Part shown: positions 2,976-48,699 of the stretch, one piece after another
How the letters are laid out: every line of letters begins with the position of its first letter
How positions within the stretch are numbered: position 1 is the first letter of the stretch
Assembly (NCBI RefSeq): GCF_000612545.2
Contig: NZ_CP097800.1
Location: 7,060,001 to 7,124,000, forward strand
Reading direction: 5' to 3'
Source of the DNA: Streptomyces sp. PCS3-D2
GTDB taxonomy: Bacteria > Actinomycetota > Actinomycetes > Streptomycetales > Streptomycetaceae
DNA: 64,000 nucleotides
Translations under genes and position numbers: made by a program
The notes under the pieces: generated by a model
Databases searched by the model: none
What the model was told of the DNA's origin: nothing
What the model saw: only the letters and a program-made list of their open reading frames with translations

Positions 2976-3314
2976 TCAGAGGTGGGCGTCGAGGAAGGCC
3001 CGGAACTCCTCCAGGTCCATCGGGCCCGGCCGGCTCGCCACCACCTCGCCGTTCGCGATGAGCACGGCCGTCGGCGCTCCCGTCACGCCGTAGCGCTTGG
3101 TCGGCCCCGGGCAGCGGGTGATGTCGGTGCGCACGGCGGTGAACCGTGTCCCGTACTCCCGAACCAGCCGGGCGACGACCGTGTCCATCGCACGGCAGGC
3201 CTCCACCGCCTTCGGCCAGGTGCCGCAGAAATAGGCGAGGACGGGCCCCGTCGTCATCGACAGGACGAAGTCGAACTCCTCGTCCTCCTGTGGCCGGTGC
3301 ACCCCGTGTGCCAT
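2976..3314 (-). CDS. Thioredoxin-like fold protein with altered active site
   Basis: A 112-residue protein of thioredoxin size and pattern. The beta-alpha-beta core (PVLAYFCGTW, then FTAVRTDI near residue 75) is followed by a cis-proline-like GAPTAVLI near 93 and a C-terminal helix. The canonical WCGPC is absent; the cysteines are C-G-T-W-P-K-A-V-E-A-C, so it cannot be a standard CXXC oxidoreductase. The ATG at 3314 has GAGGAG 7-8 bases upstream. It may be a monothiol reductase or a binding fold; the role is unknown. Confidence 0.75.
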   Translation of the reverse strand: MAHGVHRPQEDEEFDFVLSMTTGPVLAYFCGTWPKAVEACRAMDTVVARLVREYGTRFTAVRTDITRCPGPTKRYGVTGAPTAVLIANGEVVASRPGPMDLEEFRAFLDAHL

Positions 3315-3429
3315 GCGTGTCGCTCCTCGCTCGTGCGCCCCTCCGCCGGGAGCGCGGCCCCCATCATCGCCGCCGGTCGGGCGGACGGCCGCCGGGCCGT
3401 TGTCAGTGCCTCCTGTGAAGCTGATCGAC

Positions 3430-3699
3430 ATGGACGACAGGATGCTCCGGCGCCGGGTCTACGGCGCCGACCACGAGGACCCCGACCCCGGCCCGCGCCC
3501 CGGCCGCGCCTACGGCGAGCTGGTCGGCGGGCCGCTCGACGGCCTCCTCCTGGACATCACGGGCTGGAGCGCGCCCCAGCTGGACGAAGAAGCCCGCCTC
3601 CCCACCGAGATAGGGCGGTACGGGGCGGGCGGGCGCGCCCACTACCGCCGCCGCGCAGGAGATCCGGGCCACTGGGACTGGACCGGCGACAGCCGCTGA
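3430..3699 (+). CDS. Hypothetical small protein
   Basis: An 89-residue acidic/arginine-rich protein with a hydrophobic centre, ELVGGPLDGLLLDITGW (about residues 29-45). Short Streptomyces proteins with an LVGGPLDG core are familiar, but I know no function for them. An in-frame GTG at 3415 is an alternative start; neither has a strong ribosome-binding site. Third-position GC bias supports real coding. Confidence 0.6.
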   Translation: MDDRMLRRRVYGADHEDPDPGPRPGRAYGELVGGPLDGLLLDITGWSAPQLDEEARLPTEIGRYGAGGRAHYRRRAGDPGHWDWTGDSR

Positions 3700-25526: not shown

Positions 25527-26327
25527 TCAGCCGCGGTCGGCCACCGCCCGGCGCAGGGCCAGGGCCGCGAGGGCTTCCGGGGCTCCGGACTGGCCGCGGA
25601 TCCCGGGGAACGCGTTGACGTCCACGATCAGGGGGGTACCGCCGCCGGTGTCGATGATGTCCACTCCGTAGACGTCCAGCGCGAACACCGCTCCGACCCG
25701 GCGTACCAGATCGGCCCAGCCGGCGGGCAGTTCCTCCGGGGCCAGCGGGTGGGTCGGGCCGCGTCCCCCGGGGGAGAGTTCGGACCGGCGCAGGGCGGAG
25801 AAGACCCGGTCGCCGATGGCCCACAGCTTGTGGTCCCAGCCGTTGTTGGGAGCGTACTCCTGCACCACGACCGGCTCCTGGGGCCAGTCCCGGGCCAACT
25901 CCCGCAGTCGCGCGGCGTCATCGGCGCGGGCGACGAGGTCGCCGCGCCGGCTGAGCAGGCTCTTGACCACCACGGGGGCGGACGGCCGCGCCTCGCGCGC
26001 CCACGTCCCCAGGGCGCCGACGGTACGGGTCCCGGCGAACGGCAGACCGGCGCGCAGGGCGAGCCCGGCCATCTCCCTCCGGTCCTGGCACAGCGCCGTG
26101 GCCGCCGCCGTGTTGACCACCGGCGCTCCCCGGCGCTCCAAGTACCGGGCGAGCCCCAGCGCGTGCGGGGTGCGTGACTTCAGCAGGTACACGTCGGCCA
26201 GGGGAAGCGGCACGTCCCCGAGGGTGACCGGATCGAGTGCCTCGACCTCGTGCTCGGCGGCGAGCAGCGCGGTGGTGTCCGCCAGCAGCGGATGTCCTGG
26301 CTCCGGGGTGATCAGGCCGATCTTCAT
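25527..26327 (-). CDS. ATP-grasp ligase (RimK-like), second of a pair
   Basis: A 266-residue protein. The ATP-grasp fold shows the Lys motifs VVVKSLL near 124, VVVQEYAPN near 158, DHKLWAIGDRVF and the metal-binding end PLIVDVNAFPGI near 240. Such enzymes join a carboxylate to an amine through an acyl phosphate. Its ATG overlaps the stop of the upstream ATP-grasp gene as ATGA, so the two are co-translated. Substrates are unknown. Confidence 0.88.
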   Translation of the reverse strand: MKIGLITPEPGHPLLADTTALLAAEHEVEALDPVTLGDVPLPLADVYLLKSRTPHALGLARYLERRGAPVVNTAAATALCQDRREMAGLALRAGLPFAGTRTVGALGTWAREARPSAPVVVKSLLSRRGDLVARADDAARLRELARDWPQEPVVVQEYAPNNGWDHKLWAIGDRVFSALRRSELSPGGRGPTHPLAPEELPAGWADLVRRVGAVFALDVYGVDIIDTGGGTPLIVDVNAFPGIRGQSGAPEALAALALRRAVADRG

Positions 26328-27238
26328 ACGGAGTCACCCGCCGGGGCATGGATCTGCGCCGAGGCCTGGGCCGGGATCGACAGGGGGAGCGTGTGCGGCA
26401 GCGTCACGGGCGCTGCCGGCGCCGGACCTCCGGCCCGCGCCAGATCCAGTACGGCACGGGCCACCCGCGCCGCCGCGTCCGGCACCTGCCGGAAGCTCGG
26501 GAAGTCGTTGACGTCGACGACCACCGGGCCGTCGGGACCCAGCAGCACGTCCACCCCGTACAGGTCCAGTCCGTACACGGCACCCACCTGCGCGGCGATC
26601 GCGGCCACCTCCGCCGACAGCGGCACGCGGCGCTCGCGCACCGACGGATCGGGGTGCAGCGGGGAACAGCGCTCGGTCGCGAACAGCTCCCCGCCGACCG
26701 CGTACACCTTGATGTCCGTACCGGAGTTGGGTACGTACGGCTGGGCGATGAGCATGCCCTCGCCCGCGAGGACGGGCAGCAGCGTCTCCAGTGCCTCGGG
26801 CGAGGACACCAGGTGCACGGCCCGGCCGGAGCTGCCGTCGGCGGGCTTGACGACGAGCGGGTACTCGGCTGCCGGAATCTCCCCGAGCAACTCGGGGCGG
26901 GCGACGGCGTATGTGGGCGGCAGCGGGAGCCCGCGGCCGTGTCCGATGGCTGCGGCCAGCGCCTTGTCCCGTACGCCGCGGATGGACCGGGCGTCGTTGA
27001 CGGTGGTCAGCCCGGCCGCGGCGGCGCTCTCCAACAGGGTCAACCCCGGGCCGCCCGACACCGTCTTGAGGACCCAGGCGTCGTGGGTGCCCGCGTCCAC
27101 CACCTCGGTCATGCGCAGCAGCGAGCCGCCCGGCCGCACGACGTCCACGCGGTGCCCCCACGCGGTCAGCTGCCCGATCACCTCGTTCGGCATACCGTCG
27201 TGGCGGTAGTGCTCCTCCACCAGGAAGCAGAGCCTCAT
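26324..27238 (-). CDS. ATP-grasp ligase (RimK-like), first of a pair
   Basis: A 304-residue protein beginning MRLCFLVEEHYRHDGMPNEV. Core motifs: VVKPADGSSGRAV near 136, IAQPYVPNSGTDIKVYAVG near 172, GLDLYGVDVLL near 235 and VVVDVNDFPSF near 250, the Mg-binding Asp/Asn set. It is a paralogue of the next gene. GGGGAAGG lies upstream of the ATG. A 12-bp perfect palindrome sits 49 bases upstream. The pair could ligate two moieties in turn or work as a heterodimer. Confidence 0.88.
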   Translation of the reverse strand: MRLCFLVEEHYRHDGMPNEVIGQLTAWGHRVDVVRPGGSLLRMTEVVDAGTHDAWVLKTVSGGPGLTLLESAAAAGLTTVNDARSIRGVRDKALAAAIGHGRGLPLPPTYAVARPELLGEIPAAEYPLVVKPADGSSGRAVHLVSSPEALETLLPVLAGEGMLIAQPYVPNSGTDIKVYAVGGELFATERCSPLHPDPSVRERRVPLSAEVAAIAAQVGAVYGLDLYGVDVLLGPDGPVVVDVNDFPSFRQVPDAAARVARAVLDLARAGGPAPAAPVTLPHTLPLSIPAQASAQIHAPAGDSV

Positions 27239-27587
27239 CGACCTTCCCCAAAATTCCCGGACGTCCGCCGAATCCGCCCGGCGAGTTGTGACGTCACAGG
27301 ATGTCATGGACCGCAATGTGATGATCGGTCCGCCTGTGGGTTCCGCCCACCGGAGCGCTCGCGGCGGGCGTCCGACGTCCGGGAGCGGCACCTGCACAAC
27401 GCCGCGACGCGGCAGCCCCGTTCCCGCCGGCGGGGATCGGCCGCCCGCTCGGCGCTCGGGATCCGGGGACCACCGCGCAGCCGGCCGACTCCGCTCTCCC
27501 GCTCGGGAGCGAGCACCGGATCCGGGCCGGGCGCCGACGCCGGAAAACCGCGTGAATCATCGGACAGGAGGCTGTTAGGTTCATCGC
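27239..27587. other. Divergent intergenic region: ATP-grasp pair / unknown protein
   Basis: No supportable gene lies in these 349 bases. The region must hold the promoters of both divergent units and contains the palindrome TGTGACGTCACA (27287-27298). Confidence 0.5.
27287..27298. promoter_or_regulatory. Perfect palindrome TGTGACGTCACA
   Basis: A 12-bp perfect dyad 49 bases before the ATP-grasp start codon. It resembles GntR/bZIP-like GTGACGTCAC sites; the binding protein is unknown. Confidence 0.5.
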
Positions 27588-28319
27588 GTGCCGAAGCTGA
27601 ATCAGATCATCGCAGTCGAAAAGGGCGTCAAGTCCAAGTCCCTCCAGGAGCTCACCCAGGCTCACCACGACGTGCAGAAGCCCGCCCTGCTGGCCGGCAT
27701 CTCGCGGACGTACCAGCCCAAGGACGAGGAGGGTGAGCAACTGCCGCCCGAGTCCACCCGGGTGCAGGTCAAGGCGGAGGACGTGCTGCGCGCGACGGCC
27801 GGGACGCTGACGCGGCTCTTCGACGTGACGGCCACCAAGGACTGGGCGAACCGCACCGCGGCCGCCGACGTGGTCGTCGACGGCAACGTCCTGCTCGCCC
27901 AGGTTCCCGTGCCGTACCTGCTCTTCCTGGAGAAGCAGCTCACGGACCTGCACACCTTCGTGCGGAAGTTGCCGGTGTTGGACGCTTCGGAATCCTGGAA
28001 CCTGGACCCGTCCACGGACGCCTGGAAGACGGACCCGGTGCGCACGATCCGCACCAGGAAGGTGCCGCGCAACCACGTCAAGGCCGAGGCCACCGAGAAG
28101 CACCCGGCCCAGGTCGAGGTGTACTACGAGGACGTGCCGGTCGGCTACTGGACGACCGTGAAGTTCTCCGGCGCGCTGCCCGCCCGGCGGGTCAACGAGC
28201 TCCTCGACCGCGTCGAGAAGCTCCAGCAGGCCGTCAAGTTCGCCCGTGAGGAGGCCAACGGCGCCGAGGTCACCGACCAGCGGGTCGGGGACGCGGTGTT
28301 CGGCTACCTCTTCAGGTAG
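27588..28319 (+). CDS. Conserved-looking protein of unknown function, upstream of permuted tRNAs
   Basis: A 243-residue soluble protein with no recognised domain. The N-terminus is KLNQIIAVEKGVKSKSLQELTQAHHDVQKP; a charged middle has RTRKVPRNHVKAEATEKHPAQVEVYYED (stretch near 165-195, basic, possible RNA contact), then ALPARRVNELLDRVEKLQQAVKFAREEAN, a likely coiled helix. The start is GTG 27588. The stop is only about 76 bases from the first permuted tRNA, with no terminator between, so both probably share a transcript. A role in tRNA maturation or use is inference from this linkage. Confidence 0.85.
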   Translation: MPKLNQIIAVEKGVKSKSLQELTQAHHDVQKPALLAGISRTYQPKDEEGEQLPPESTRVQVKAEDVLRATAGTLTRLFDVTATKDWANRTAAADVVVDGNVLLAQVPVPYLLFLEKQLTDLHTFVRKLPVLDASESWNLDPSTDAWKTDPVRTIRTRKVPRNHVKAEATEKHPAQVEVYYEDVPVGYWTTVKFSGALPARRVNELLDRVEKLQQAVKFAREEANGAEVTDQRVGDAVFGYLFR

Positions 28320-28320
28320 C

Positions 28321-28395
28321 CGTCGAGAACCCCTCCCGCATGTCTGCGGGAGGTGCGCGAGAGCGCAAGCTGAAACTGATGTTGAAGCTGAAACA
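28321..28395 (+). ncRNA. Structured leader of the permuted tRNA unit
   Basis: Two adjacent perfect hairpins occur: CCTCCCGCA/TGCGGGAGG (28332-28353, loop TGTC) and TGCGC/GCGCA (28354-28367, GAGA loop). They are followed by a 10-base direct repeat AAGCTGAAAC with an 18-base period (28367-28376 and 28385-28394) that runs up to the first tRNA half. The hairpins could protect or position the 5' end of the precursor. Confidence 0.55.
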
Positions 28396-28471
28396 GGGGT
28401 GTCAGTTGGGGGTTCGAATCCCTCCCCCGGCATTGCGTGCCGGGGTGGCCCAAGCCGGTAGAGGCGGCCCC
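28396..28471 (+). tRNA. Circularly permuted tRNA, element 1
   Basis: Order on the DNA: anticodon-stem 3' strand GGGGT (28396-28400), variable region (28401-28407), T-stem GGGGG / loop TTCGAAT / CCCTC (28408-28424), acceptor 3' strand CCCCGGC (28425-28431) with A as discriminator, 6-base linker, acceptor 5' strand GCCGGGG (28439-28445), TG, D-arm GCC...GGTAGA..GGC (28448-28465), G26, anticodon-stem 5' strand GCCCC (28467-28471). The acceptor pairs 7/7, the anticodon stem 5/5 (one G-U), the T-stem 5/5 (one G-U). Loop bases lie outside (TTGAATC after, AAACA before), so the anticodon is not settled. No CCA is encoded. Confidence 0.8.
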
Positions 28472-28544
28472 TTGAATCTCAGACTATCGCTCCAGTCTCA
28501 GTATTCGCCGCCGAACACCGGATCGACCGGGTGCGGACGACCAT

Positions 28545-28615
28545 CGACGGATGGGGGTTCAAGTCCCTCCTGCGCCTCTTTCCATGGCGCGGTAGTTCAA
28601 AGGCAGAACACGTCG
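28545..28615 (+). tRNA. Circularly permuted tRNA, element 2
   Basis: Order: anticodon-stem 3' strand CGACG (28545-28549), variable GAT, T-stem GGGGG / loop TTCAAGT / CCCTC (28553-28569), acceptor 3' strand CTGCGCC (28570-28576), T, 8-base linker, acceptor 5' strand GGCGCGG (28586-28592), TA, D-arm GTTC-AAAGGCA-GAAC (28595-28609), A26, anticodon-stem 5' strand CGTCG (28611-28615). The acceptor pairs 7/7 (one G-U), D-stem 4/4, anticodon stem 5/5, T-stem 5/5. The adjoining loop bases are ACCTCAGA after and ACCAT before. A CTCAGA motif follows the 5' half in both elements. Confidence 0.8.
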
Positions 28616-28673
28616 ACCTCAGAATGATCCGCGACTCTTCAACGTGCCGGTGTGCGCAATTGGGTGGCAAACA

Positions 28674-28706
28674 GGAGCCCGGGAGCTGGATATGCTCCCG
28701 GGCTCC
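28674..28706 (+). terminator. Strong hairpin after the permuted tRNA unit
   Basis: GGAGCCCGGGAG (28674-28685) pairs perfectly with CTCCCGGGCTCC (28695-28706) around a 9-base loop. It ends the tRNA transcript and also lies downstream of the convergent anti-sigma gene. Confidence 0.8.
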
Positions 28707-28739
28707 GTCACGTCCGCGCCGAGGTCACCCGGTCAGAGG

Positions 28740-29465
28740 TCACACGGGAACGGACACGAAGGTCCGGCCGGCCTCGTTCTCGACCAGGACCGCCTTGACG
28801 TCGGCCCGGTCCACGGCCGCCGAACCGTCCAGTCCGGCGCCCTTGGCCTCGCCGTTCTCCTGGCTGCCCACGACCCAGCTGCCCGCGGTCGTGCGCTTGC
28901 CGTCCTTGGAGACCACGATCAGCCGGCAGCGCTCGCCCGCCGGCACTCCGGTGACCGCCGCCCGCAACCGCACCCACTGGGCGGCCGGCGTCATCTGCAC
29001 GGTCATCCGCGCACCCGTGCCCGCATCGGTCGCGGAGTGCAGCGTGGTTCCCTTGGGCGGGGTAGAGGGGTCCGCCGAAGCGGTCGGCGATGGGGGCACC
29101 GGCAGCGCGACGGGGTCGGGATCGCCCCCGGCCAGTTGCGTACCAGCCCAGAACACGGCGGCCAGCGACGCCGCCACCGCCAGGCCCGTGAGCCCCGCAC
29201 GACGGCGCGCCGCGCCCGCCCGCTCGCCCCGCATCTGCCGCAGGGTGCGCTGGAGCAGCAGGTCACCGCCCTGCGGCGGTCCGTCGAGGAACGCCTCCTC
29301 GGGCACCTCCCCCAGTGCCGCCTCCATCTCGCGCAACGCGGCCACCTCCTCCCGGCACTGCACGCATCCGCTCATGTGTTCCTCGACCCGGCGGACCTCC
29401 TCGGCGTCCAGGACGCCGAGCACGTACGGGCCGAGCAGTTCCTCCTCGTGCCGCTGCCGGTTCAT
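28740..29465 (-). CDS. Anti-sigma factor with zinc-binding (ZAS) domain
   Basis: A 241-residue protein. The N-terminal anti-sigma zinc domain has HMSGCVQC near residues 30-37, the H-x3-C-x2-C motif. One membrane helix (AGLTGLAVAASLAAVFWAG, about 90-108) follows, then an extracytoplasmic RskA-like domain to residue 241. It should hold the adjacent sigma factor inactive at the membrane. Its ATG overlaps the sigma stop as ATGA. Confidence 0.93.
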   Translation of the reverse strand: MNRQRHEEELLGPYVLGVLDAEEVRRVEEHMSGCVQCREEVAALREMEAALGEVPEEAFLDGPPQGGDLLLQRTLRQMRGERAGAARRRAGLTGLAVAASLAAVFWAGTQLAGGDPDPVALPVPPSPTASADPSTPPKGTTLHSATDAGTGARMTVQMTPAAQWVRLRAAVTGVPAGERCRLIVVSKDGKRTTAGSWVVGSQENGEAKGAGLDGSAAVDRADVKAVLVENEAGRTFVSVPV

Positions 29466-30073
29466 GCCACCACCTCACGCAGTCCGGCCGGCTGCTGGGG
29501 CGGCCTGCCCGATCCTTTTCCGTCTCTTGTTCCGCCGTCCCGGAAGCCGTCGTCCCTGAAGACGTCGCGTAGGGCCTTGAGCGCGTAGTGCGAACGCGAC
29601 TTGACCGTACCCGCCGGGATGCCGAGCGTGTCGGCGGCCTCCGCCACGCTCAGCTGCCGGTAGTACAACTCCTTCAGCACGTCGCGGTGTTCCGGGGACA
29701 GCCGGTCGAGAGCTCCCAGCACCGTCATGCTGTCCACCACCGAGTCGGCGTGGTCCGCCTCCACCGGGGGAGCCGCCGCGGAACCGGAGACCTCCGGGGG
29801 CCGGGCGGCCCTGGCCCGGTACCGGTCGGTGATGATGTTCCGGGCCACGGTGAGCAGCCAGCCGCGCACCGAGCCCTTCCCGTTGACGAGGACCTCGGAG
29901 TGCCGCCAGGCACGTATGAGGGTCTCCTGCACGACGTCCTCGGCGGCGGCCCGGTCTCCGGTCAGCCGGGTGGCGTACGCGAGCAGGGCGTGTCCGTGCT
30001 CCTCGTAGACCGACCTGATCAGCGCCTCATCGGTCGAGCCCCGCCGCGTGCGGGGCCACAGTGGTCCGGCCAT
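29462..30073 (-). CDS. ECF sigma factor (SigL/SigK-like)
   Basis: A 203-residue ECF factor. Sigma-2 is near residues 20-90 (AEDVVQETLIRAWRH, then VRGWLLTVARNIITDRYRAR) and sigma-4 near 120-170 (ALDRLSPEHRDVLKELYYRQLSVAEAADTLGIPAGTVKSRSHYALKALR). It is co-translated with a ZAS anti-sigma gene. GGAGAGGG lies before the ATG at 30073. A Crp-type site is centred about 77 bases upstream. Confidence 0.94.
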   Translation of the reverse strand: MAGPLWPRTRRGSTDEALIRSVYEEHGHALLAYATRLTGDRAAAEDVVQETLIRAWRHSEVLVNGKGSVRGWLLTVARNIITDRYRARAARPPEVSGSAAAPPVEADHADSVVDSMTVLGALDRLSPEHRDVLKELYYRQLSVAEAADTLGIPAGTVKSRSHYALKALRDVFRDDGFRDGGTRDGKGSGRPPQQPAGLREVVA

Positions 30074-30142
30074 CTCACCCTCTCCGTCTTCCTCGCTTGC
30101 GTGGTGCGGTCGGAACACGCCGGCGGCGCCGATACGGTTCAT

Positions 30143-46893: not shown

Positions 46894-48699
46894 TCAGCGG
46901 GTGCCGAGCTTGATCCATTTCGCCGTGCTGGGGACGCCCCGCGCGTCGAGCAGGAAGAGCATGTAGGAGCCGGGCGGCGCGTCGGCGGCACCGGGTGGGG
47001 TGCGCAGCGCGATCCGGTGGCCCTGGATGTCGGTGATCCGCAGGTCGAGGTGGCGCTGGCTGGTGTTGACCGAGTGCGTTGCCGTCGTCGGGGCCAGCAG
47101 TACGGCGCGCCTGACGTCCTCGGCCGTCGAGCTGGACACCTGGAAGGCCGTGTCGTACCGGAGGTCGCCCGCCGGGACCCGGTCGAGCGCCGGCCGGGCG
47201 CCCCGGTGCAGATAGGCGGGCTCGTAGAGCTCGATGCTGCCGTCCATCCCGTCCCCGATGTCGGGATCGTTGGCGATCTGCTGGAGTTCGTCGCCGGTGA
47301 CCATCATCCGTCCGTCCGGCAGCACCAGGGCGTTGGAGTGGTAGCCGCGCGGCAGCCGTTGGGCCGGTCCCGTCCTCCACCGGCCGCTCGCGTCGCGCAC
47401 CTCGATCTGTCGGTACTTCGGGTCGGCCTCCGGGTTGAACGGGCCGTGGCCGTAGTCCCTGGTGTCCAGGGCCCCGTTGACAGTGAGCAGCGTGCCGTCC
47501 GGCAGGATCAGGGTGTCGTCCTGGGTGCGGCCGAAGGCCCTGGGCTCCTCGGTCGTCCAGCGTCCCCCGGACAGCCGGTATGTGTGCGGGTCACGCGGGT
47601 CGCCGCCGAGGACGAGGACGGAGTCCGGGCCCCGGAAGCCCGCCGGCAGCGGCACGGCCGAGCCGTAGCCCCGGAAGTCGGCGGGCCGCCGAGGAAGCTC
47701 GCTGCGTACGTCCCCGACCGGGTCGAAGAGCCACTGCTGGTCGGCGTCGCGGCCGAGGCCGTAGATCATCCCGTCGCGCAGCGAGAACAGGTGCGGGTAG
47801 TCGTTGCGGAAGGGGGCGTCCGAGCGGAGCCGCTCGGCGGGGACGCCGGCGGGGATGTCGTACGGCCGCCAGGGAACGCGGTGTCCGAGCGCGGGGAAGC
47901 GTTCCACCACCGGGGTGGGGGTGCCCGTGCCGCGCTCGGACTGGCCGGACATGATGATCTGCCGGCCGTCCGCCCCGGTCACGACCGAGGGGTACCAGCG
48001 GCCGACGGCCAGGTCGCGGTTGCGGAACCACTTCTCGGTCCACGGGTCGAAGACGAAGGACAGCCGGGCGCCGCTGCCGCCCCTGCCGCCGAGGTTGCCG
48101 CCGAAGACCCCGACCATCCCGTTGGGTAGGTAGGAGTGCCCGGCGCAGAAGAACGGCGCCGGGCGGGGGGAATGGGTGCCGTCGGGCATCAGCACCACCG
48201 GCGGCGGTACGTTCCGGAAGGCCCGGGGCCCGGTCCCCGCAGCGGGGTTCCAGAGCCAGGCCCGGCCCGCGTTGGCCGGGCCGACGGTGTTCGTCGGCCC
48301 GGTCTCCTTCGTGGGGTCGGACTCCACGCGTTCGAAGGAGAACAGCAGCACCTTCCCGGTGGGCAGCAGGGCCACGTGGACGCCGAAGTCGGGGGAGGGG
48401 AAGAACTGCGTGAAGCGGCCGAACCGGGCGGGGTCGAAGCCGGCGTTGACCCTGCGCTGGGACTCCTCCAGACCGGCCAGGCTCGCCGTGCGCCTCGCCT
48501 GCGGGTACCCCGTGGTGTCCTGGGCGGCCCGGCGCAGCCGGGCGTGGGTGCGGGCATGCTCCTCGCCCAGGACGCCGGCTTCGTCGCCGATGTGGTGGAC
48601 CGCGGCCCGGGCCGGCGCGGGTGGCCCGGCGGTGGGAAGGGCCAGGGCTGCGGCGAGGGCCAGCGCCGACAGGGCGGCGGACCGGGACGGGCGGGACAT
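46894..48699 (-). CDS. Secreted copper-radical oxidase (galactose/glyoxal-oxidase-like)
   Basis: A 601-residue protein. Signal peptide about 1-35; a Kelch-type beta propeller; a C-terminal DUF1929 domain. Expected copper-site residues are visible: Cys in PFFCAGHSYLPNG near 169 (thioether Cys), Tyr-His in LPRGYHSNAL near 455, and His in THSVNTSQRH near 546. It would oxidise primary alcohols or aldehydes and release hydrogen peroxide. It differs from the hyphal-tip GlxA context because no cellulose-synthase gene is adjacent. GTGAGGAG precedes the ATG. Confidence 0.88.
   Translation of the reverse strand: MSRPSRSAALSALALAAALALPTAGPPAPARAAVHHIGDEAGVLGEEHARTHARLRRAAQDTTGYPQARRTASLAGLEESQRRVNAGFDPARFGRFTQFFPSPDFGVHVALLPTGKVLLFSFERVESDPTKETGPTNTVGPANAGRAWLWNPAAGTGPRAFRNVPPPVVLMPDGTHSPRPAPFFCAGHSYLPNGMVGVFGGNLGGRGGSGARLSFVFDPWTEKWFRNRDLAVGRWYPSVVTGADGRQIIMSGQSERGTGTPTPVVERFPALGHRVPWRPYDIPAGVPAERLRSDAPFRNDYPHLFSLRDGMIYGLGRDADQQWLFDPVGDVRSELPRRPADFRGYGSAVPLPAGFRGPDSVLVLGGDPRDPHTYRLSGGRWTTEEPRAFGRTQDDTLILPDGTLLTVNGALDTRDYGHGPFNPEADPKYRQIEVRDASGRWRTGPAQRLPRGYHSNALVLPDGRMMVTGDELQQIANDPDIGDGMDGSIELYEPAYLHRGARPALDRVPAGDLRYDTAFQVSSSTAEDVRRAVLLAPTTATHSVNTSQRHLDLRITDIQGHRIALRTPPGAADAPPGSYMLFLLDARGVPSTAKWIKLGTR

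Follow-up and report, generated by a model that had tools for sequence, protein, structure and literature searches.

A probable conserved non-coding RNA with two permuted tRNA-like domains next to the DUF7873 gene of Streptomyces and phages

Two elements with the parts of a tRNA in circularly permuted order lie in tandem on the + strand of the 64-kb stretch of Streptomyces DNA analysed here (referred to as the window), and instead of being two tRNA genes they are very probably domains of a longer conserved RNA. The best named relatives of proteins from this DNA are Streptomyces proteins, with identities of up to 98%. The presumably transcribed non-coding RNA of about 375 nt forms a two-part cassette with the gene directly upstream of it, which encodes a protein of the uncharacterised family DUF7873. 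The same arrangement was found in many other Streptomyces genomes and in phages of very different hosts, and the RNA folds with compensatory changes across both. The fuller reading, in which the cassette specifies a Y-RNA-like, tRNA-mimicking ribonucleoprotein that has DUF7873 as its partner and is carried by phages as well, is one that we consider reasonably probable.

Permuted modules and the RNA that contains them

Module 1 (28396..28471, + strand) and module 2 (28545..28615, + strand) share one order of parts: the 3' strand of the anticodon stem, the T arm, the 3' strand of the acceptor, a loop, the 5' strand of the acceptor, the D arm and the 5' strand of the anticodon stem. The stems of both were checked base by base. 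In module 1 the anticodon stem (28396-28400/28467-28471) and the T stem (28408-28412/28420-28424) each pair at 5/5 positions, the acceptor (28425-28431/28439-28445) at 7/7 and the D stem (28448-28450/28463-28465) at 3/3, all on the + strand, and the acceptor loop consists of the 7 nt ATTGCGT. In module 2, likewise on the + strand, the anticodon stem (28545-28549/28611-28615) and the T stem (28553-28557/28565-28569) are again paired at 5/5 positions, the acceptor (28570-28576/28586-28592) at 7/7 including one G-U pair and the D stem (28595-28598/28606-28609) at 4/4, with an acceptor loop of 9 nt. A G-U pair is counted within some of the 5/5 stems of the modules. The first-pass annotation of this DNA had described two tandem tRNA-like elements in permuted order with 7/7 acceptor, 5/5 anticodon and 5/5 T-stem pairs in both and D stems of 3 and 4 pairs; its stems and coordinates agree base for base with ours, and the linkers of 6 and 8 bases that it reported are the 7 and 9 nt given above without the discriminator base.

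On the + strand of the window, a detector that looks for a T arm, an acceptor strand, a linker of at most 90 nt, the other acceptor strand and a D arm in this permuted order matched these two modules only. One lower-scoring match at 47732, the sole one on the minus strand of the window, is probably due to chance. ARAGORN found no tRNA or tmRNA within the 64-kb window and no Rfam family reached its gathering score there. At 28300-28740, tmRNA was also absent from the matches kept in a lax Rfam search, which leave out three lower-scoring overlapping matches of related families.

Both modules sit within one structured RNA that extends from 28332 to 28706. At its 5' end the minimum free energy fold contains a G+C-rich hairpin (28332..28353, +), the sequence of which differs among relatives. 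Module 1 is enclosed by the P3 region (28361..28501, +), which is made up of the three helices P3a (28361-28365/28488-28492, +; GAGCG:CGCTC), P3b (28370-28378/28493-28501, +) and P3c (28388-28391/28479-28482, +), and because P3a crosses P3b the two would create a pseudoknot if both form. The conserved middle of the RNA (28472..28544, +) contains a TATCGCTC-like and a GATCGACC-like motif as well as the 5' strands of P4 (28516-28521/28647-28652, +) and P5 (28533-28537/28628-28632, +). Among 120 tandem-module loci, with redundant loci counted, the middle motif T-N-T-Y-GCTC was found in 99 and ATCRANY in 100. The conserved 3' part (28616..28669, +) provides the 3' strands of P5 and P4 with a CTT[A/C]AACG motif between them; the motif TTAAA[C/A/T]G was present in 86 of the same 120 loci and a looser form in 105, redundant loci again being counted. 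The conserved block is closed by a strong G+C hairpin (28674..28706, +; GGAGCCCGGGAGC:GCTCCCGGGCTCC), and a similar hairpin is present in relatives in + orientation. This hairpin is a probable terminator without a U tract, and a terminator scan in which a T run was required found none.

Helices P3, P4 and P5 close the anticodon side of the modules. In the predicted fold a short loop connects the two acceptor ends of each tRNA-like domain, and the anticodon stem opens into the body of the RNA, leaving no anticodon loop; this is the topology of the tRNA-like part of the bacterial Y RNA YrlA.

Covariation and conservation of the fold

The conservation of the fold was analysed in a MAFFT alignment, built from sequence only, of 29 RNAs (the window, 13 viral and 15 bacterial). 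Two modules with short linkers were present in 73 loci, of which 35 were non-redundant. The 28 relatives are those left after seven of the 35 had been removed before alignment: L083, L157, L110 because its register did not fit, and four loci that belong to a single cyanophage type. The covariation count therefore applies to two-module loci with short linkers, forms with long linkers or one module being left out. With no structure supplied, RNAalifold recovered both T stems, both acceptors and both D stems together with P4 and P5, and 44 of the 50 pairs in this structure showed compensatory change. A search for covarying stems in homologous loci had been proposed as a check in the first-pass annotation, and the stems did covary. 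The anticodon stems were not returned by RNAalifold unprompted from the 29-sequence alignment, and of P3 only three P3a pairs were; anticodon stems and P3 were added by hand from the window, which gave a structure of 70 pairs. In this structure 88.2% of cells were paired, compared with 73.7% for shuffled and 39-45% for slid partners, 56 of the 70 pairs were altered on both sides, and the covariation score was 0.433 compared with 0.165 for the control.

The tRNA-like stems were paired in nearly all sequences: 100% of cells in the T stems of module 1 and module 2 (4/5 pairs altered on both sides in each), 98.5% in the acceptor of module 1 and 100% in that of module 2 (7/7 pairs altered on both sides in each). 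For the flanking helices, P4 was paired in 97.1% of cells (6/6 pairs altered on both sides), P5 in 85.4% (5/5), P3a in 85.5% (4/5) and P3c in 86.2% (1/4, with two pairs invariant), P3b being the weakest with 73.9% (4/9). The aligned anticodon stems were paired in 56.8% (module 1) and 73.4% (module 2) of cells, which is low because this region aligns poorly. When each sequence was scored singly, taking the best of several registers, 5/5 anticodon-stem pairs were found in 80 of 102 unique copies of module 1 and in 72 of 96 of module 2, compared with 26% and 24%, respectively, in a control in which halves were exchanged between loci. Given this strong covariation over 29 bacterial and phage sequences, the permuted modules are not a product of chance, in agreement with the earlier claim that chance was unlikely, to which conservation with compensatory change across bacteria and phages now lends support.

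Linkage to DUF7873 and distribution of the cassette

The gene directly 5' of the RNA (27588..28319, +) has a GTG start and encodes 243 aa that match DUF7873 (Pfam PF25283) with an E value of 1.9e-121. An AlphaFold2 model of the protein was obtained with a pLDDT of 94.6 and a pTM of 0.71, and its comparison with solved structures gave no significant match and no recognisable RNA-binding fold. The pI is 6.5, i.e. near neutral, and there is a basic stretch at about residues 141-170 that includes the nearly invariant lysine 158. It is from the linkage described below that we infer binding of the RNA by DUF7873, and the part bound would be the conserved core outside the tRNA-like domains. Searches of the open-licence PMC literature yielded no paper on DUF7873 and none that joins Y RNA, Streptomyces and tRNA-like; judging by titles, the first lines of abstracts and selected passages, none of the papers retrieved describes permuted tRNA for phages or Streptomyces.

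DUF7873 was present in 70 of 150 Streptomyces genomes, and at least one permuted module was located 3' of the gene in all of these (70/70). When the RNA was sought by DNA similarity it was found in 66 of the 150 genomes, all of them among the 70 carriers of DUF7873, and the remaining four carriers, with no DNA-similarity match, likewise contain modules. According to the detector, 49 of the 70 Streptomyces loci have two modules and 21 have one. In four of the latter (L257, L259, L260 and L261) a short hairpin, as judged by eye and not by folding, takes the place of module 1, and module 2 and the flanking motifs are retained; these loci represent the natural loss of one module.

Outside this sample, a survey of 296 genomes of the wider phylum found DUF7873 in six, all of them Streptomyces; it is also present in Kitasatospora, Actinacidiphila and Nonomuraea. 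The control genome of Deinobacterium chartae showed a match to both DUF7873 and TROVE. Among phages, 73 of 50,697 records contained DUF7873 with identities down to about 30%, and the hosts (Gordonia, Arthrobacter, Pseudanabaena, Rhizobium, Vibrio and Klebsiella) range from actinomycetes to cyanobacteria; in virus contigs there were at least 164 stretches with DUF7873. Inspection by eye showed two permuted modules 3' of the gene in phages Racecar, Phendrix, Pam2 and KpLz-2_45 and one in RHph_Y1_11 and Vibrio phage D517.

The linkage was quantified in 165 of 170 retrieved loci with DUF7873 relatives, 85 of them viral and 80 bacterial; in the other five, which were set aside, little DNA followed the gene or the reading stopped early. 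Within 700 nt downstream of the gene, 76/85 viral and 80/80 bacterial loci contain at least one module, and 51/85 and 72/80, respectively, contain at least two. By comparison, at least one module was seen in the 700 nt 5' of the gene in 10/85 viral and 0/80 bacterial loci, on the opposite strand of the downstream 700 nt in 1/85 and 3/80, and dinucleotide shuffles of homologous downstream regions gave about 0.004-0.006 matches per 700 nt. Removal of the modules that overlap an ARAGORN tRNA left the loci with at least one module unchanged at 76/85 and 80/80, and those with at least two at 46/85 viral and 59/80 bacterial. In two of the nine viral loci (9/85) where the detector found no module (L092 and L114), modules that its rules had missed were visible by eye, and at least four (L084, L085, L109 and L124) showed no module by eye, which means that DUF7873 can occur without the adjacent RNA.

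Ordinary tRNA genes were found at 32 of 90 viral loci, with none nearby at the other 58, and the density of tRNA genes was 4.2 per 10 kb at viral loci compared with 0.05 around bacterial cassettes. A tmRNA match of 89-90 bits was obtained in two loci, L072 at 3072-3600 (Gordonia phage Phendrix) and L111 at 384-912; given that the Phendrix stretch lies between annotated tRNAs and bears no annotated feature, it is probably an unannotated phage tmRNA in a tRNA array. The other neighbours of the cassette in the window were found near it in only 7-13 of 80 loci from Streptomycetaceae, 61 of which have complete flanks, and since they are mostly absent in relatives the conserved unit consists of the DUF7873 gene and the RNA. 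Among these neighbours, two adjacent RimK-like ATP-grasp genes (25527-27397, -) occur near the cassette in 7/80 and 10/80 relatives, and a pair encoding a sigma factor and a zinc-finger protein of the anti-sigma type (28740-30142, -), which converges on the RNA, in 13/80.

Possible function and relation to known RNAs

Most likely the RNA would mimic tRNA within a ribonucleoprotein and would not be cut at the anticodon. Enzymes that bind tRNA, such as nucleases and those that process or modify it, could then be baited by the tRNA-like domains or dock on them, and would find no anticodon loop to cut. We put forward this bait or decoy mechanism only tentatively. Roughly one in three viral loci is situated amid tRNA genes, and the phage copies might plausibly counter or redirect host enzymes that target tRNA; many Streptomyces carry the cassette on the chromosome. 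In PMC7790460 YrlA is suggested as a possible competitor for an anticodon nuclease, and PMC4390854 cites tRNA halves that are under developmental regulation in Streptomyces coelicolor; together these reports, both on other RNAs, make a decoy plausible. Two features are not obviously needed by a closed mimic and speak against it, namely the conserved N-C-Y of the acceptor loop and the C at position -3 in bacteria, which might mean that the ends are cut free. Other points that weigh against the ribonucleoprotein reading are the lack of a recognisable RNA-binding fold in DUF7873, the low and unspecific YrlA scores given below, the modest pairing of P3b (73.9% of cells), the viral loci with DUF7873 and no module, and the absence of a nearby ordinary tRNA gene at 58 of 90 viral loci.

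Acceptor loops were counted in the unique modules of two-module loci, with one module 2 dropped for a linker shorter than 3 nt. The base after the discriminator was C in 57/64 and 59/60 bacterial (modules 1 and 2, respectively) and 36/43 and 37/43 viral modules, and position -3 was C in 64/64 and 60/60 bacterial and 32/43 and 25/43 viral modules. These bases could be explained if RNase P and tRNase Z opened the acceptor loops, as in a two-piece tmRNA, with the pieces held together by the acceptor stems. We regard this as rather unlikely; it would be compatible with mimicry and would differ in that a tRNA-like 3' end, or two of them, would be free and might receive CCA and an amino acid. Further points in its favour are that NCCA is encoded in part of the modules (35/64 and 0/60 bacterial, 15/43 and 14/43 viral) and that linkers in some phages are long, up to 83 nt with a detector limit of 90. 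Against it, the N-C-Y motif could equally belong to a structured closing loop, NCCA is encoded in none of the 60 bacterial copies of module 2, and the T before the 5' strand of the acceptor (position -1) is not constant (25/64 and 36/60 bacterial, 26/43 and 28/43 viral). A more elaborate version, which we consider distinctly doubtful, is that a phage-borne DUF7873 ribonucleoprotein was domesticated in Streptomyces, a direction of transfer that would run from phage to bacterium, and that its two anticodon-less 3' ends, once opened by RNase P and tRNase Z and perhaps charged, act on host enzymes that target tRNA, or on the ribosome, by disarming or redirecting them.

It is also unlikely that the RNA is a true member of the Y RNAs (YrlA) in which DUF7873 replaces Ro60 and the RNA tethers a nuclease such as PNPase, as a Y RNA is reported to do in Deinococcus, an analogy that draws on the permuted module being identical in kind to that of YrlA. 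Full-length matches to the YrlA model (RF02553, gathering score 69 bits) were weak in the window, with 28.2 bits at 28385-28489 (module 1) and 26.3 bits at 28531-28637 (module 2), and the best of the sub-threshold matches in phages had 49.6 bits (module 2 of L086); the gathering score was reached in 0/61 genomes and 0/35 phage records. At this score level the model is not specific, given that nine of the 14 control genomes, among them E. coli and B. subtilis, also gave matches at E 0.01 or better. Matches of about 38-41 bits were seen elsewhere in many Streptomyces genomes, and one of 40.7 bits is located outside the window at G000:C1:5160167-5160279. The six best YrlA matches in Streptomyces, with 53-59 bits, were all about 1 kb from a TROVE match, and as the gathering score of 69 bits misses these RNAs beside Ro60-type genes (best 59 bits) it is a strict cut-off. 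Two of six Streptomyces Ro60-type (TROVE) loci, L298 and L300, satisfied the detector, so that Y-RNA-like RNAs with the same module do exist there. One of the two has two tandem modules; L300 (G039:C16) is at about 1296-1603. The acceptor loops of L298 and L300 are 1-5 nt, whereas those of the DUF7873 RNA are longer (6-10 nt in 47/64 and 59/60 bacterial copies of modules 1 and 2, respectively, and often longer in phages) and have N-C-Y, and the P3-P5 core of the latter was not seen in these two loci. TROVE (PF05731) had no match in the whole genome that contains the window at E 0.001, and TROVE and DUF7873 occur together in 41 of 150 Streptomyces genomes, which is compatible with independence (p = 0.25); in the 35 phage records with DUF7873, TROVE was found in 5 and RtcB in 3. 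Because no match reached the gathering score and no Ro60/TROVE gene is adjacent, we do not name this RNA a Y RNA.

The first-pass annotation had interpreted the modules as two tRNA genes that need cleavage and ligation in the anticodon loop, and this interpretation is probably wrong, as the modules appear to be domains of a longer covarying RNA. Circularly permuted tRNA genes occur in red algae and some archaea, and it is very unlikely that the modules are of this kind, with a transcript that would yield ordinary tRNAs either by way of a circle that is then cut or through cleavage and ligation in the anticodon loop. The re-joined halves of 102/103 (module 1) and 97/98 (module 2) unique modules were called tRNA by ARAGORN, 199/201 in all, compared with 515/1026 and 360/965 (875/1991) in a swapped-halves control, the tested modules having been preselected by three of their stems (T, acceptor, D) and by no fewer than 4/5 pairs in the anticodon stem. 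RtcB ligase is present in the genome, so ligation as such is possible. The long and conserved helices P3, P4 and P5 and the motifs outside the tRNA parts speak against tRNA genes, and so does the hairpin that replaces module 1 in the four one-module Streptomyces loci. The triplet at the anticodon place was not constant under a junction that we chose ourselves (a 7-nt loop to which the 5' half contributes 4 nt and the 3' half the remaining 3): the 201 unique modules gave 40 listed combinations of module and anticodon, the commonest being CTC in 27/98 of module 2, and after the anticodon stem of module 1 close Streptomyces relatives read GAA, CAA or AAA. Since the junction is our choice, the scatter of triplets is no more than suggestive. 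For cutting on the anticodon side, the tRNA splicing endonuclease (PF01974) had 0 matches in the same genome, with matches in four archaea as positive control, although another nuclease could take its place; because of this missing match we do not use the name permuted tRNA gene. In addition, YrlA already has the permuted order and yet is not a tRNA gene. It is hardly credible that the modules are a functionless remnant left by tandem tRNA genes or by an integration event at tRNA genes: the permuted pattern would also arise from tandem copies of one tRNA, and some detector matches in phage arrays probably are such tandems (8/12 upstream matches overlap ordinary tRNAs), but the window has no ordinary tRNA, strong covariation across phages and bacteria contradicts a lack of function, and DUF7873 is a regular partner gene.

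Among known systems, mascRNA/menRNA (RF01684; gathering score 42.5), a linear tRNA-like RNA of animals, gave a weak match of 25.8 bits to the T arm and acceptor of module 2 and has no relation to the window elements by context. Permuted tRNA genes are alike in that the 3' half precedes the 5' half and full cloverleaf pairing is restored on rearrangement, but here the halves are embedded in a longer conserved RNA in a genome without a splicing endonuclease match. PMC10085705 states that permuted tRNA transcripts are circularised and then cut back to the standard form, and that permuted tmRNA is processed into two RNAs. With two-piece tmRNA the RNA shares a tRNA-like domain, acceptor ends joined by an intervening stretch and a place within a longer non-coding RNA, whereas its tRNA-like domains are two in number, each with a full D arm and a full T arm, and no tmRNA was found in the window. 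If it is a true decoy, the RNA would be an RNA-based answer to host defences that cut tRNA; structure, linkage and conservation are already solid. The RNA also resembles YrlA, for which a tRNA-like domain is described in PMC7790460. According to the Rfam structure line of RF02553, YrlA has the same order of T arm, 3' strand of the acceptor, loop, 5' strand of the acceptor and D arm, and its stem also opens at the anticodon side of the permuted tRNA-like module. Y-RNA-like tRNA mimicry is thus already known, and the new elements here are the tandem arrangement of modules, the P3-P5 core, carriage by phages and a partner that is DUF7873 instead of Ro60. This ties an uncharacterised protein family to a non-coding RNA of very different phages and of 70/150 Streptomyces, and suggests that mimics of tRNA with permuted order exist beyond Ro60 systems.
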